Source of the DNA: Erysipelotrichia bacterium
Lineage (GTDB): Bacteria; Bacillota_I; Bacilli_A; Erysipelotrichales; Erysipelotrichaceae
Assembly: GCA_030525245.1 (NCBI GenBank)
Contig: JAUNFB010000009.1
Coordinates: forward strand, 1-48,070
Direction: 5' to 3'
Length of the DNA: 48,070 nt
Shown: in pieces, positions 25,957 through 31,028 of the stretch
Layout: each line of letters starts with the position of its first letter
How positions within the stretch are numbered: position 1 is the first letter of the stretch
Made by a program: the position numbers and the translations under genes
The notes under the pieces: generated by a model
What the model was told of the DNA's origin: nothing
The model's database searches: none
What the model saw: the letters and a program-made list of their open reading frames with translations, nothing else

Positions 25957-26322
25957 ATGCAAAATCGTAAATTAGGACGCAAGGCCGACCATCGTAAAGC
26001 TTTATTCCGTAATTTAGCAACCGATATGATTGTTTACGGTAAAATTAATACAACTGAAATGAAAGCAAAGGAATTGAGAACTGTTGTTGATGAATTAGTA
26101 ACATTAGCAAAGAAAAATGATTTACATGCTCGTCGTCAAGCAGCAAGTTATGTTAAAGATGTAGTTGCTGATAAGAAGACAGGCAAAACTGCTTTACAAA
26201 AGTTGTTTGATGAAATCGGACCTAAATTTGCCGATGTTAACGGCGGTTATACACGTGTTGTAAAGACCGGTGTTAGAAAAGGCGATGCAGCTCCGATGGC
26301 TTACATTGAATTTACAAAATAG
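25957..26322 (+). CDS. rplQ: 50S ribosomal protein L17
   Basis: 121 residues. It starts [25 protein letters not shown] and ends [22 protein letters not shown], standard for bacterial L17. It is the last gene of the ribosomal cluster; a perfect-stem terminator begins seven bases after the stop. Confidence 0.98.
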
Positions 26323-26328
26323 TTATTA

Positions 26329-26359
26329 AAGGCGACTTGTAGAATAAAGTCGCCTTTTT
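26329..26359 (+). terminator. Terminator of the ribosomal protein cluster
   Basis: AAGGCGACTT (26329-26338) pairs perfectly with AAGTCGCCTT (26347-26356) and runs into TTTTT. Confidence 0.95.
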
Positions 26360-26442
26360 ATGGGAAAGTTTAAGAGAATATAATCAAGATTGTTTCGTGA
26401 ACCACTTGGTGGTATCTAATGACAAATCAATTTATCGTAATT

Positions 26443-26476
26443 GAAATAGGAACTAATCCAACTTAGTTCCTATTTC
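26443..26476 (-). terminator. Hairpin overlapping the 3' end of the deaminase-like gene
   Basis: A perfect 14-base stem: GAAATAGGAACTAA (26443-26456) with TTAGTTCCTATTTC (26463-26476), loop of six. On the minus strand it contains the last codons and the TAG stop of the gene at 26453, followed by AATTACG, so the U-tract is poor. It could be a terminator or a 3'-end stabiliser. Confidence 0.55.
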
Positions 26477-28930
26477 ATATTTTTTATGGATTATTTTATC
26501 AATTACTGATTTACTGTCGGTACATGATGTGATATATCCGCGTAAAGATATTAGCTTTTCTTTTAAAGTTTTGCAGCCGGTACTTAGATAAATATCTGCT
26601 TTTCCTTTTCCGTTTCGGGCTTCTTGAACAAGGTTGCCTAAAGCAGAATTTCCTTCAAAAGCCAGTACAATTGAATTTCTTCTTTCGAATATCTCATAAT
26701 TGAAGGATTTATAAATGCCCATTTCCTGAGATTCTGTAGAAATTCGGAAATTATCAATTGGTGAATTGAGTAATTTTTGACAATCATTTTTGGATAGAAG
26801 TGAAGGTACAATAGCAAAGATGGTAAATCCTTGAGTGTTATTTTCCACTAAATATTTCTCATAGGCAGTTAATTTATGCCCAATAACAAAGAAAAATTTG
26901 TCGGGATCCAGCTTTTTTAATAATTGTTGAATAATATCTTTTTCTAATTGATGGGTACGAATATTGGCGTTGCTTGTAAAACTGCCGCCGGCTAAAATAA
27001 TTGGTAATTTATTCCATGGTAATTCTTTTACTCTCTCTTTTAGTATTTGGTAGGAAGAAACCTTTTTAATTTTAAATGTCGGAATATTTGCGGAGTTGTT
27101 GAGTTGTTGCAGTTTATTTGTATAATAGTCTTTAACGGAATAATGATTTAATTCATCTTGAAAAGCATTAAATTTGAGTATAAAGTAACTTCTGGCATTA
27201 TTTAATACTTCTTCTTCGGTAGAACGCATTTGGATAAACTCCTCATTACTTATATTTAGTAAGTTTTGTAGAGCTAATTGTTCATCAATGGTATCTGTAC
27301 CATATAAACCACATCCGTCTGTTCCTTGGACGCATTTGATTCCGTATTTTAAATATTTTCTCAAAGGATGATTGTTTAAAATTGTTAAATTGTTTAAACG
27401 CACATTACTGGTTAATTGGAATTCTAAAATAACGCCGTTTTCTTTTATTTGTTTCAAAGTTTCTTTGCCGCTTTTAGTTTTAAAATCAGCACCATATATA
27501 CCATGACCGATTCTTACAGGCGGGTACTTTTGGTTAGGTAGTAAAGAGTCTTTAACACAATTGATTGCTTTTGCCATGTTGTGTTTCAAGGTATCATTTT
27601 CTCCGGCATGAATGCGGATAGTAAAATGCGGATCCTTCGAGGCGATCTTTTGAACTATTTCTCTAATAACATCTTTTAGTTCGGAAATATCATTGATTTC
27701 TTCACCGACGAAGTCACAGCCTACAACATAAGGATCACGAGCAGTCAACTTTAATACTTCGATATTCTCGCTTAAATAGTTGGTTGAAGCAATATTGTCT
27801 TTTACAATAGTCAAAGGTATCCGCCTTAAGGCTGCCAAATAGCGGATAGTTACACCGGTTTCTTGTTCAACAAGAGGCAATATATAATGTATTTGTTCCA
27901 ACATATTGATTAAGGATTGATCTTTTTTAACTAAGGTTGTATCCGATATTTCAATATAATTTATATGCTGTTGTTGATAAGAGCGACCAATCCATAAAAG
28001 TGTATCTTGAAATAAAGTAAGGTTTTGATAATTTTTATTATTGGTATCTTTCAACATCTTTAAGAGGTTTTTATAGACATCAATATCAGGAATTTTAGAA
28101 AAATTATTCAGTGGCACTGTATAATCGCATTTTATTCCTTTAGTAAAAACATAACGATACAGATACAGTTTTTCTAAATTGGTAAAAACGGCTTGAGAAT
28201 CTTTTAGTATAACTAAGGAGTTGCGAATCTTATTAATGTTATAGTTAGCATTTTCCAAGTTATTTAAAATTAAATCGGCAAAATTGATAAAGGTCATATC
28301 GTTTATTTTTCTGTTAACATGTTTATCCTTTAGATCAAGATCATTACCGAATTGTTTAATCACTTCTTGTCGGCGTTGTTTAATAAATTCTGTTTGTTTT
28401 TCATTTAGAATCAAGTTCAACTTGTAAATATAATATAGAGGATATCTGATCTGATGCTTAATACCCAAAGCAATTAGGACATCAGGGTTTAAAGTTGCAT
28501 TACCGTGAGTATGTAAATCCGTTTTAAATTTCACATCTTCTAAAATATAGGATTTAATTAAAGTATGGCGTATATCGAATTTATAATCTTTGGTTTGGGA
28601 CATCAAGGTTTTGGAAATAGCGGGTATCGTTGCGTTGATTTCAATTTTTCCGTTTGGGTAGATATTGGCGATTTTTGTACCTGCTAATCTAAATACATAG
28701 ACTTCTTGACCATCGCCTTTAATGAAACAAGGAATAGTTCCTTTGACTACTTTTAATTGTTGCCGATTGAGACTTAATGGTTGTTGTAATATTTTTGCCA
28801 AATTACAAATCAAATTATCTGTGTGATGATTTGGCGTTTCTAAGCAATATGAAAGAATATTATGCTTCAAAAACAGATTAACAACGATGTCTTTTTCTTT
28901 ATCCATATAAAATTTTCCGAAATATCCCAT
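26453..28930 (-). CDS. Adenosine/AMP deaminase-like protein with C-terminal DprA/SLOG-like domain
   Basis: 825 residues. Residues 137-580 show the adenosine deaminase metal-site series: DLHTHGN (H140, H142), HAGEN (H441, E444), RIGHG (H476) and QGTDG (D538). LTSNVR sits before the HPLRKYLKYG helix as in ADA. The usual second Asp after D538 is Gly. Residues 640-800 are a separate Rossmann-like region: LPIILAGGSFTSN, FFFVIGHK, then FERRNSIVLAFEGNSALGNLVQEA, which resembles the RN(R/S)II...SG motif of DprA/SLOG nucleotide-binding proteins. About 130 N-terminal residues are unassigned. Likely a nucleoside or nucleotide deaminase with a nucleotide-sensing module; substrate unknown. The start could also be ATG 28906. 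Confidence 0.7.
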   Translation of the reverse strand: MGYFGKFYMDKEKDIVVNLFLKHNILSYCLETPNHHTDNLICNLAKILQQPLSLNRQQLKVVKGTIPCFIKGDGQEVYVFRLAGTKIANIYPNGKIEINATIPAISKTLMSQTKDYKFDIRHTLIKSYILEDVKFKTDLHTHGNATLNPDVLIALGIKHQIRYPLYYIYKLNLILNEKQTEFIKQRRQEVIKQFGNDLDLKDKHVNRKINDMTFINFADLILNNLENANYNINKIRNSLVILKDSQAVFTNLEKLYLYRYVFTKGIKCDYTVPLNNFSKIPDIDVYKNLLKMLKDTNNKNYQNLTLFQDTLLWIGRSYQQQHINYIEISDTTLVKKDQSLINMLEQIHYILPLVEQETGVTIRYLAALRRIPLTIVKDNIASTNYLSENIEVLKLTARDPYVVGCDFVGEEINDISELKDVIREIVQKIASKDPHFTIRIHAGENDTLKHNMAKAINCVKDSLLPNQKYPPVRIGHGIYGADFKTKSGKETLKQIKENGVILEFQLTSNVRLNNLTILNNHPLRKYLKYGIKCVQGTDGCGLYGTDTIDEQLALQNLLNISNEEFIQMRSTEEEVLNNARSYFILKFNAFQDELNHYSVKDYYTNKLQQLNNSANIPTFKIKKVSSYQILKERVKELPWNKLPIILAGGSFTSNANIRTHQLEKDIIQQLLKKLDPDKFFFVIGHKLTAYEKYLVENNTQGFTIFAIVPSLLSKNDCQKLLNSPIDNFRISTESQEMGIYKSFNYEIFERRNSIVLAFEGNSALGNLVQEARNGKGKADIYLSTGCKTLKEKLISLRGYITSCTDSKSVIDKIIHKKYEIGTKLD

Positions 28931-28950
28931 AACTCACCTATATTTCCATA

Positions 28951-28959
28951 AGTATAGCA
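28951..28959 (-). promoter_or_regulatory. Extended -10 promoter of the deaminase-like gene
   Basis: TGCTATACT on the minus strand (28959-28951) is an extended -10 element about 21 bases before the ATG; AGGTGA (28939-28934) is the ribosome site. The gene may therefore be transcribed separately from the DUF2804 gene behind it. No convincing -35. Confidence 0.5.
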
Positions 28960-28984
28960 CAAATAAGCTGATAAGGGTGATAAA

Positions 28985-30010
28985 TTACCAACGGTTACGT
29001 ACTTTTTCCGCAAAGCCCAATTGACCGTCCAATGTTATTGTGCGCGTATCATCGAGTTTACATTGCCCGTAAAATTTTCCGAATACTTGATGCTGATCGC
29101 TTTCGATAATTAAGGCATTAGTACGATTAGCGCGGTCTAAAATCGGCTCAAAGCGTAAATCAAGTTGATTATTATTGTCTGTAAAATGCCAGATTCCATA
29201 GAAGTGATCACGATTGTCAACTTGAGGGAGGCCGAAATCAACTTGATCCAACTTGTAGGCTTTTCCATCATAGAACAACATATTCTCACTGGCAGCGCTG
29301 GTGTTTCCAAAACCATAACCTAAATTAAATCCGAACGGAACGTTGTTTACATAACAGCTTAGAGAACTCCAATACCATGTATTATCATAGGTCCAAATTC
29401 CTCTGCCCCAATCTAACACTGACGTTGTTTTTTCCGAAAAATCGTAATTTTTTTCACCGATCATGACGGTTCCGCATGCTTTCATGCAATTGATTTTTTG
29501 ATTATAGTAAAAGCAACCTTTCTTGTTGAAAGGAGTGCAAATTACAATGCTTTCATCAGGAACATCAGTCAATTTGATATTCCATTTTATAGTATTATTT
29601 CCTTGGAAATTATGCATGTAACCTTGCAGAATTCTTTCGCTTTGTTTGTTTATAAACGAAAGAGCGTAGTTTTTTCCTTTTGAAGTAAGATCGCCTGTTA
29701 AAGATGAACGCGGATGATTCTTTTTTCCTAAAGTCATAAATTGCATAGGAGATTTGGTGATTTCCCATTTTTCATTGAAATCTAAGAATGAAACGGAATC
29801 TAAACCCATATATCCGTTATCAGCAATTGTCAGAGCTAAACCATAGTTTTGATTACCTATATAATAGTAATCCCATTCTTTAGTCTTGAATCGGCTAATA
29901 AGATCGGTTTTCTTATTGTAGATAGGTAACATATCGGTACAATAACCCGGTTCGATAATATTATTGTCTTTATCTAGTAAGTTTTTAGCCGCAATTATTC
30001 TATTTTGCAT
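28985..30010 (-). CDS. DUF2804 family protein
   Basis: 341 residues, no signal peptide or membrane helix. The central motif VLDWGRGIWTYDNTWYWSS and the GFNLGYGFGNTSAASENMLFYDGKAYKLDQV segment are typical of DUF2804, a beta-rich family related in fold to the lipocalin/AttH-like proteins, with unknown function. The start at ATG 30010 has AAAGGAG upstream. It precedes the deaminase-like gene on the same strand with a 54-base gap; co-function is possible but unproven. Confidence 0.8.
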   Translation of the reverse strand: MQNRIIAAKNLLDKDNNIIEPGYCTDMLPIYNKKTDLISRFKTKEWDYYYIGNQNYGLALTIADNGYMGLDSVSFLDFNEKWEITKSPMQFMTLGKKNHPRSSLTGDLTSKGKNYALSFINKQSERILQGYMHNFQGNNTIKWNIKLTDVPDESIVICTPFNKKGCFYYNQKINCMKACGTVMIGEKNYDFSEKTTSVLDWGRGIWTYDNTWYWSSLSCYVNNVPFGFNLGYGFGNTSAASENMLFYDGKAYKLDQVDFGLPQVDNRDHFYGIWHFTDNNNQLDLRFEPILDRANRTNALIIESDQHQVFGKFYGQCKLDDTRTITLDGQLGFAEKVRNRW

Positions 30011-30210
30011 TTTATTCTCCTTTTTAGTTATTCTCTTTTCATATTAACACAAAGGAGCATATATTAATATGAAAAAAATATCGAAAAAAATTTCTATTTA
30101 ATGTAAAAATTTCATATAAATTTCATAAAAGTAGTGTTTAATAATATTGTAATTTTAGAGAGAATTACCTCGTTTCCCCCTTCTTGAATAAAATTTTGAA
30201 AAAAATAAAT

Positions 30211-30226
30211 GGTGTCGTTTGACACC
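30211..30226 (+). other. Hairpin upstream of the PPC-domain gene
   Basis: GGTGTC-GTTT-GACACC is a perfect six-base-pair hairpin followed by TTTATTTTG. It lies 36 bases before the chosen start codon and could be an attenuator or regulator site. Its presence inside the longer open frame argues against the upstream ATG at 30209. Confidence 0.4.
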
Positions 30227-30262
30227 TTTATTTTGTTAGGTTATGATTTTGACGGTGATATT

Positions 30263-30667
30263 ATGTTTTTAGCAGTAAGATTAAAAAAAGGTCAGGATTT
30301 AAAGAAAGAAATTGAAAAAATTATTAGAGAAAACAAGGTAAAGGCGGCTGTTGTCATCAGTGCAGTAGGTTGCTTGGATAATTTGTGTATTCGCTTGGCC
30401 GGAGGGAAGACTTTTTTGGAGAAAAAGCAGGATTATGAAATTGTGTCTTTGATGGGGACGATATGTAAGGATGGCTCCCATCTGCATATAGCGGTAAGTG
30501 ATGCGAACGGAAAAACATATGGTGGACATTTGTGCTATAATTGTATTGTCAATACAACCTGTGAATTGGTACTGGCTTGTATTGATGCTGAATATGATTT
30601 TTCACGTGTTTATGATGATACTACCGGATATAAGGAGTTGGTCATCAAAAAGGAGGAACTTGAATGA
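30263..30667 (+). CDS. PPC/DUF296 domain protein
   Basis: 134 residues from ATG 30263. The whole chain is one PPC (DUF296) domain: LAVRLKKGQDLKKEIEKII, AAVVISAVGCLDNLCIRL, then GSHLHIAVSDANGKTYGGHL near residues 75-95, which carries the conserved histidines. Bacterial single-domain PPC proteins form trimers; their role is not known, although plant homologues bind AT-rich DNA through a separate hook absent here. The frame extends to ATG 30209, but the family N-terminus fits 30263. It overlaps the next gene by four bases. Confidence 0.8.
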   Translation: MFLAVRLKKGQDLKKEIEKIIRENKVKAAVVISAVGCLDNLCIRLAGGKTFLEKKQDYEIVSLMGTICKDGSHLHIAVSDANGKTYGGHLCYNCIVNTTCELVLACIDAEYDFSRVYDDTTGYKELVIKKEELE

Positions 30668-30903
30668 AAAAATTAACTAAATATTTTGTTGGCAGCCAAG
30701 AGGCAAAAAAAGATTTGTTGCATTTATTGATTCTTATTTTGGTCTATGCACTTGTAGCTTGGTTGATTAATATTGTCGGCGGTGTGCTATCAATTATTCC
30801 GATTGTTAATATTATTGTCGGCGTAGTGGTAAAAATTTGCATATTATATTTAGCTTTGTGTGTAGTGGTTTCTGTGCTGGCATTTTTCAAAATTGTTGAT
30901 TAA
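30664..30903 (+). CDS. Small hydrophobic membrane protein
   Basis: 79 residues, not recognised. A Lys-rich N-terminus (MKKLTKYFVGSQEAKKD) is followed by two or three hydrophobic segments (about residues 18-40 and 42-75) with Gly/Ile/Val repeats. It is translationally coupled to the PPC gene (ATGA overlap, AAAGGAGG upstream), so it is genuinely expressed with it. A terminator follows at once. Function unknown. Confidence 0.7.
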   Translation: MKKLTKYFVGSQEAKKDLLHLLILILVYALVAWLINIVGGVLSIIPIVNIIVGVVVKICILYLALCVVVSVLAFFKIVD

Positions 30904-30910
30904 TTAAGGT

Positions 30911-30946
30911 TATATCTCTTTGGTTTCAAAGAGATATATTTTTTTT
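30911..30946 (+). terminator. Terminator of the PPC/membrane-protein operon
   Basis: TATATCTCTTT (30911-30921) pairs with AAAGAGATATA (30928-30938), followed by eight T. Confidence 0.93.
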
Positions 30947-31028
30947 GGCGGAATTATGAAGATAAAAAATTTGTTATGTATGAATATCTGCTAAAATTGG
31001 GTGCTGTGTAATAAGAAATAATCTTACA

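Follow-up and report, generated by a model that had tools for sequence, protein, structure and literature searches.

A SLOG-deaminase fusion of a gut bacterium, apparently an undescribed one-gene system akin to RdrB and Cad1 of phage defence

The described systems closest to the protein studied here, which we call SLOG-ADA, are enzymes of the adenosine deaminase (ADA) fold and enzymes joined to SLOG domains. Cad1, the CARF-ADA effector of type III CRISPR systems that converts ATP to ITP, is like SLOG-ADA a Rossmann-type nucleotide sensor fused to an ADA-fold deaminase. It deaminates ATP and not adenosine, and the two positions that hold adenosine in mouse ADA, Asp19 and Asp296, are Gly and Asn in Cad1, so that both aspartates are replaced as they are in SLOG-ADA (PMC12669630). 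The CARF domain of Cad1 is N-terminal, whereas the SLOG domain of SLOG-ADA is C-terminal, and the residue after the metal Asp is Asn in the former and Gly in the latter. Furthermore, SLOG-ADA has an extra N-terminal domain and no adjoining CRISPR genes were seen. Like SLOG-ADA, RdrB of RADAR has the ADA fold, is extended at the N-terminus and carries a large insertion that separates the HxH from the HAGE motif; it also retains the histidine tetrad (PMC9994260). The RdrB proteins of relatives keep the DD pair, whereas SLOG-ADA has a SLOG domain, no RdrA and no RdrB profile match.

Human ADALP1 is an N6-methyl-AMP deaminase; it has Asn28 where mouse ADA has Asp19, and this residue contributes to holding the monophosphate (PMC11349198). 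ADA (Pfam: A_deaminase) and ADALP1 share the catalytic core with SLOG-ADA, and ADALP1 also the HxHxN motif, whereas the SLOG-ADA chain is about 2.4 times longer and has the SLOG domain and Gly539. KomA of the Kongming system helps to convert dAMP to an inosine-type nucleotide in phage defence; it acts with KomB and KomC, and the review cited reports no SLOG fusion for it (PMC12948488).

Two further systems join a SLOG domain to a nucleotide-acting enzyme. In Thoeris ThsA (SIR2-SLOG), the SLOG domain binds a nucleotide signal, which is coupled to NAD depletion (PMC11204291). The effector of ThsA is a SIR2 NADase with ThsB as TIR partner, in contrast to the deaminase of SLOG-ADA. Cap17/Detocs, which carry the TIR- and PNP-associating SLOG domain (Pfam: PF18178), again combine SLOG with a purine-acting enzyme. 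This phosphorylase destroys ATP. It is not a deaminase, the systems are multi-gene, and PF18178 is undetected in SLOG-ADA. In Cap17, SLOG is paired with a purine nucleoside phosphorylase (PMC10952713).

Domains and active site of SLOG-ADA

The SLOG-ADA gene lies at positions 26453..28930 (-) of the window, the whole 48,070-nucleotide stretch of DNA that was analysed. It is a single intact standalone ORF of 825 aa with an ATG start, and all of its features given below are on the same (-) strand. Homologues were gathered from 60 related genomes, from order, class and phylum samples and from named genomes. The family has a steady chain length of about 800-860 aa, in line with the earlier note on this DNA, which had described a chain far larger than ADA. 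The full-length homologues are only about 46-63% identical to the window protein, and H140, H142, H441, E444, H476, D538 and G539 are identical in 47/47 of them. The note had placed the ADA/AMP-deaminase motifs at exactly these residues and had read Gly at the purine-contacting Asp after D538. Chance would not preserve such residues at this level of identity, so both observations are borne out.

The ADA-fold deaminase domain spans residues 136 to about 612 (27095..28525) and is identified by Pfam, by PDB sequence matches and by an AlphaFold model with Foldseek. It contains the metal-site motif H140-T-H142 (28505..28513), the HAGE motif H441-A-G-E444 (27599..27610), the catalytic H476 in RIGHG (27503..27505) and the pair D538-G539 (27314..27319), in which the metal Asp is retained and the second Asp is Gly. 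HxH, HAGE, GHG and the metal Asp thus follow one another as in the ADA-fold superfamily, on an ADA-type barrel. Pfam A_deaminase matches residues 320-568 with an E-value of 2.4e-15 and thus passes its curated cut-off. In the PDB, sequence searches matched adenosine deaminases, besides two marginal flavodoxin matches. With the full-length AlphaFold model (pLDDT 79.6), Foldseek places ADA structures at the top, AMP deaminase and Cad1 further down and DprA at rank 50. Moreover, hhalign aligns the family to the single sequence of the ordinary ADA of the same genome with 92% probability. Between H142 and E327 the domain is enlarged by roughly 100 residues relative to the general ADA layout. As the catalytic and metal residues are invariant in 47/47, SLOG-ADA is very probably an active enzyme.

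Both positions that recognise adenosine in ADA are altered: Asp19 is Asn144 in 46/47 homologues and Asp296 is Gly539 in 47/47. N144 (28499..28501), in the HxHx[D/N] motif, corresponds to Asp19 of mouse ADA and Asn28 of human ADALP1 (PMC12669630, PMC11349198). With these two replacements SLOG-ADA departs from the canonical adenosine deaminases, and it scores 45 bits against NCBIfam TIGR01430, under the equivalog cut-off of 216.55. Since Cad1 is also altered at both adenosine-holding positions and ADALP1 at the first of them, the Asn/Gly pair by analogy points to a phosphorylated purine as the putative substrate. Gly539 might reduce activity on purines; the same position is Asn in Cad1 and Asp in RdrB. 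The ordinary-sized ADA of the window genome, encoded on another contig (L095:4515-5528), has NTDN, with its second active-site Asp changed to Asn, and keeps HFHLD.

The C-terminal domain (residues about 636-805; 26516..27025) is a DprA/LOG-like Rossmann domain whose predicted fold is clearly SLOG. An AlphaFold model of residues 620-825, built from 47 sequences, has a pLDDT of 90.3, and the best Foldseek match is Helicobacter DprA, followed by TRPM, molybdenum-cofactor carrier proteins and LOG. Five matches reach an E-value of 1e-3 or better, namely four DprA chains and one TRPM channel; TRPM channels carry a SLOG domain in their N-terminal region. Sequence searches of the domain with the Pfam SLOG profiles, PF18178 and LOG included, gave no match. 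Toprim_2 matched 14/47 of the domains (best E-value 0.0017); as the Foldseek matches point to SLOG, we put this down to the general resemblance of Rossmann folds.

The earlier note had pointed to a DprA-like C-terminal segment. This segment, RNSIVLAFEGNSALG, is present at residues 751-765 and its surroundings are conserved, with G760 inside it and N766, Q769 and N773 around it invariant. It belongs to a candidate SLOG ligand site at residues 740-773 (YKSFNYEIFERRNSIVLAFEGNSALGNLVQEARN; 26612..26713), in which Y740, K741, S742, E746, F748, G760, N766, Q769 and N773 are invariant in 47/47. S650-F651 in the loop of the first SLOG strand (26978..26983) is also invariant. The LOG-type catalytic motif PGGxGTxxE is absent from the domain, and the family consensus there is FDGNSAxxNLVQEA. 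The union of an ADA-like deaminase and a DprA/SLOG-like domain in one polypeptide, the central claim of the note, is confirmed by conservation, structure prediction and Foldseek. The note had counted a non-nucleotide fold of the C-terminal region as evidence against it, and Foldseek instead gives the nucleotide-binding SLOG fold. Sensing may be coupled to deamination in this protein, as the note had suggested.

The N-terminal domain (residues 1-135; 28526..28930) is of mixed beta/alpha composition and strongly conserved, for example in FYLDKEKDI and TPNHxTGNLI. Pfam and PDB sequence searches of these ~135 residues returned nothing at a meaningful E-value.

Occurrence and genomic setting

SLOG-ADA is present in 73/295 genomes of the order and in 16/60 of the related genomes. 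Samples of the class and of the phylum contained it in this order only, and three weak matches in the phylum sample lie in frames of 318-350 aa, about as long as an ordinary ADA. Two named MAGs labelled Clostridia bacterium, from roe deer gut and sheep gut, also carry it. A search of phages and viral contigs found no homologue, and plasmids gave no full-length SLOG-ADA and only partial ordinary ADA-like matches; on this basis we rejected carriage as prophage or plasmid cargo. In a viral fold search with SLOG-ADA, the sole significant match was an ADA-sized unnamed protein.

The identities of SLOG-ADA do not follow those of RpoA. In two genomes (G003 and G004), RpoA is 78-79% identical to that of the window genome and SLOG-ADA, at another locus, only 52-53%, whereas in three others (G001, G002 and G005) RpoA is 68-69% and SLOG-ADA, at the same rplQ site, 61-63% identical. 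In a quick gene tree, with weak support on 9/44 inner branches, the genus is split and copies from other genera and from another family are nested in its clades. From these identities and loci and from the conflict of the quick tree with RpoA identity, we read SLOG-ADA as probably exchanged horizontally within the order. Together with the patchy occurrence and the varying neighbours, this conflict agrees with an accessory system of one gene that spreads horizontally. An ordinary canonical ADA is found on another contig of the window genome, so salvage is already covered there, and canonical ADA is present in 7/7 sampled genomes of the genus, which rules out that SLOG-ADA replaces a missing ADA.

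A comparison of 31 SLOG-ADA loci revealed no family-wide neighbour. The neighbours are ordinary chromosomal genes for enzymes, transporters and surface proteins, and a PADLOC scan of 115 neighbouring proteins found no recurrent defence family and no defence enrichment. Housekeeping purine-salvage operons, which the earlier note had named as a context that would speak against its reading, were not found in the surveyed homologue neighbourhoods. In one named MAG (L001:5159-7740), a protein with a RelA/SpoT-type synthetase domain and an HD-domain protein are encoded upstream of SLOG-ADA; these are possibly nucleotide-signal genes.

In the window, the slot directly downstream of rplQ (26322-31000) holds SLOG-ADA and a DUF2804 gene (28985-30010), which is encoded on the strand of SLOG-ADA and lies 54 bases upstream of it. 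This pairing is limited to the rplQ-site group of five genomes, and we therefore rejected DUF2804 as a conserved partner. In a close relative that lacks SLOG-ADA (G029, L098:7068-9569) the slot is occupied by a TIR-WD40 protein, and in G004 (L096:4694-9268) and G003 (L097:3238-7818) by a protein of 1524-1526 aa. The slot looks like a variable chromosomal spot among close relatives.

A TIR_2 search of the window genome (89% complete) had no match, so that neither a TIR-domain ThsB partner as in Thoeris nor a candidate maker of an ADP-ribose signal was found in it. Among the 60 relatives, TIR_2 occurs in 8/16 carriers and 10/44 non-carriers of SLOG-ADA, which we do not use as evidence because it is confounded by genus and because the window genome is without TIR_2.

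Proposed function and alternatives

The large ADA-fold chain raises the question whether SLOG-ADA could be RdrB or Cad1 in divergent form, and so belong to RADAR or to the type III CRISPR effectors. Large proteins of the ADA fold, 811-928 aa long, do occur in related genomes, and the three tested score 1e-20 or lower against the PADLOC RdrB models. With these models neither the window protein nor two of its homologues gave a match, and hhalign of the SLOG-ADA family against the RdrBs of relatives gives 12% probability over 97 columns. An RdrA-like ATPase, which the earlier note had likewise not seen next to the gene, adjoins SLOG-ADA neither in the window nor at homologue loci. The profiles, with their positive controls, and hhalign rule out RdrB. 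PADLOC CARF_ADA matches SLOG-ADA weakly (1e-6) and over the ADA domain only; the ordinary ADA of the genome does far better (3e-39), so the match stems from the ADA part alone. Pfam and PDB sequence searches of the N-terminal domain detected no CARF, which, with this confined match, argues on sequence grounds against Cad1. Membership in either system is thus hardly credible. The RdrB-like proteins of relatives are found at L088, L089, L090, L091, L092, L093 and L094. The large proteins tested from next to these genes, such as one of 867 aa in L093 with a GDRGSGKSS P-loop, are not recognised by any RdrA model but could be divergent forms of RdrA.

We tentatively propose, at slightly less than an even chance, that SLOG-ADA is a one-gene, ligand-gated purine-nucleotide deaminase, whose action would arrest the cell or block a phage. 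The C-terminal SLOG domain would bind a ligand of nucleotide type, which is probably derived from an adenine nucleotide or from ADP-ribose, or would respond to a shift in a normal nucleotide. Ligand binding would switch on, or localise, the ADA-fold domain, which would hydrolytically strip the 6-amino group off a phosphorylated purine nucleotide. Deamination of the nucleotide pool (e.g. ATP/dATP to ITP/dITP) or an inosine-type signal would then lead to cell arrest or to a phage block, by analogy with Cad1 and RdrB. In this proposal we infer the activity, the phosphorylated substrate, the gating by SLOG and the defence role alike. A standalone, mobile-looking SLOG-deaminase fusion would most resemble ligand-gated immune effectors such as ThsA and Cap17. 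For the defence role itself, the patchy distribution, the horizontal exchange and the analogy make a plausible case that falls just short of even.

The main rival, which we regard as rather unlikely, is a regulated metabolic or house-cleaning deaminase of an unusual purine nucleotide, e.g. N6-methyl-AMP or an adenine nucleotide that is damaged or modified, with SLOG as an allosteric sensor of purine status. Its HxHxN motif is that of ADALP1, and the ordinary chromosomal neighbours with no defence enrichment suit it, whereas the patchy occurrence with signs of horizontal exchange, the canonical ADA alongside and the absence of a purine-metabolism operon context do not. The conserved polar SLOG residues K741, S742, E746, Q769, N773 and K792 could also be catalytic, as enzymatic SLOG domains exist (PMC9503650). 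SLOG would then be a LOG-like N-glycosidase in a two-step enzyme, and coupled deamination and base release would destroy or make a nucleotide signal; without PGGxGTxxE and a LOG Pfam match in the domain, we hold this to be quite improbable. Returning to the gated deaminase, we see it as possible, with the balance somewhat against, that SLOG-ADA is an undescribed, standalone effector of immunity or nucleotide signalling encoded by one gene, whose C-terminal SLOG sensor gates a purine-nucleotide deaminase with an HxHxN and D-G site unlike those of ADA, Cad1 and RdrB, and which is exchanged horizontally among the gut bacteria of one order.

In the literature searched, whose scope did not include the founding SLOG survey (Burroughs et al. 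2015), no description of the SLOG-ADA fusion was found, and a prior mention is possible. SLOG-ADA of this gut bacterium appears to be related to RdrB and Cad1, two deaminases of phage defence, and to be a transferable one-gene system that is undescribed. Among the known defence deaminases, that of RADAR depends on a partner ATPase, Cad1 on a messenger made by CRISPR and that of Kongming on further genes. If our proposal is true, the system would be compact and its sensed ligand open to biochemical search. The D-G active site would bear on substrate choice by ADA-fold enzymes, and the pattern of SLOG with purine-nucleotide destruction, seen in ThsA on NAD and in Cap17/Detocs, would widen to deamination.
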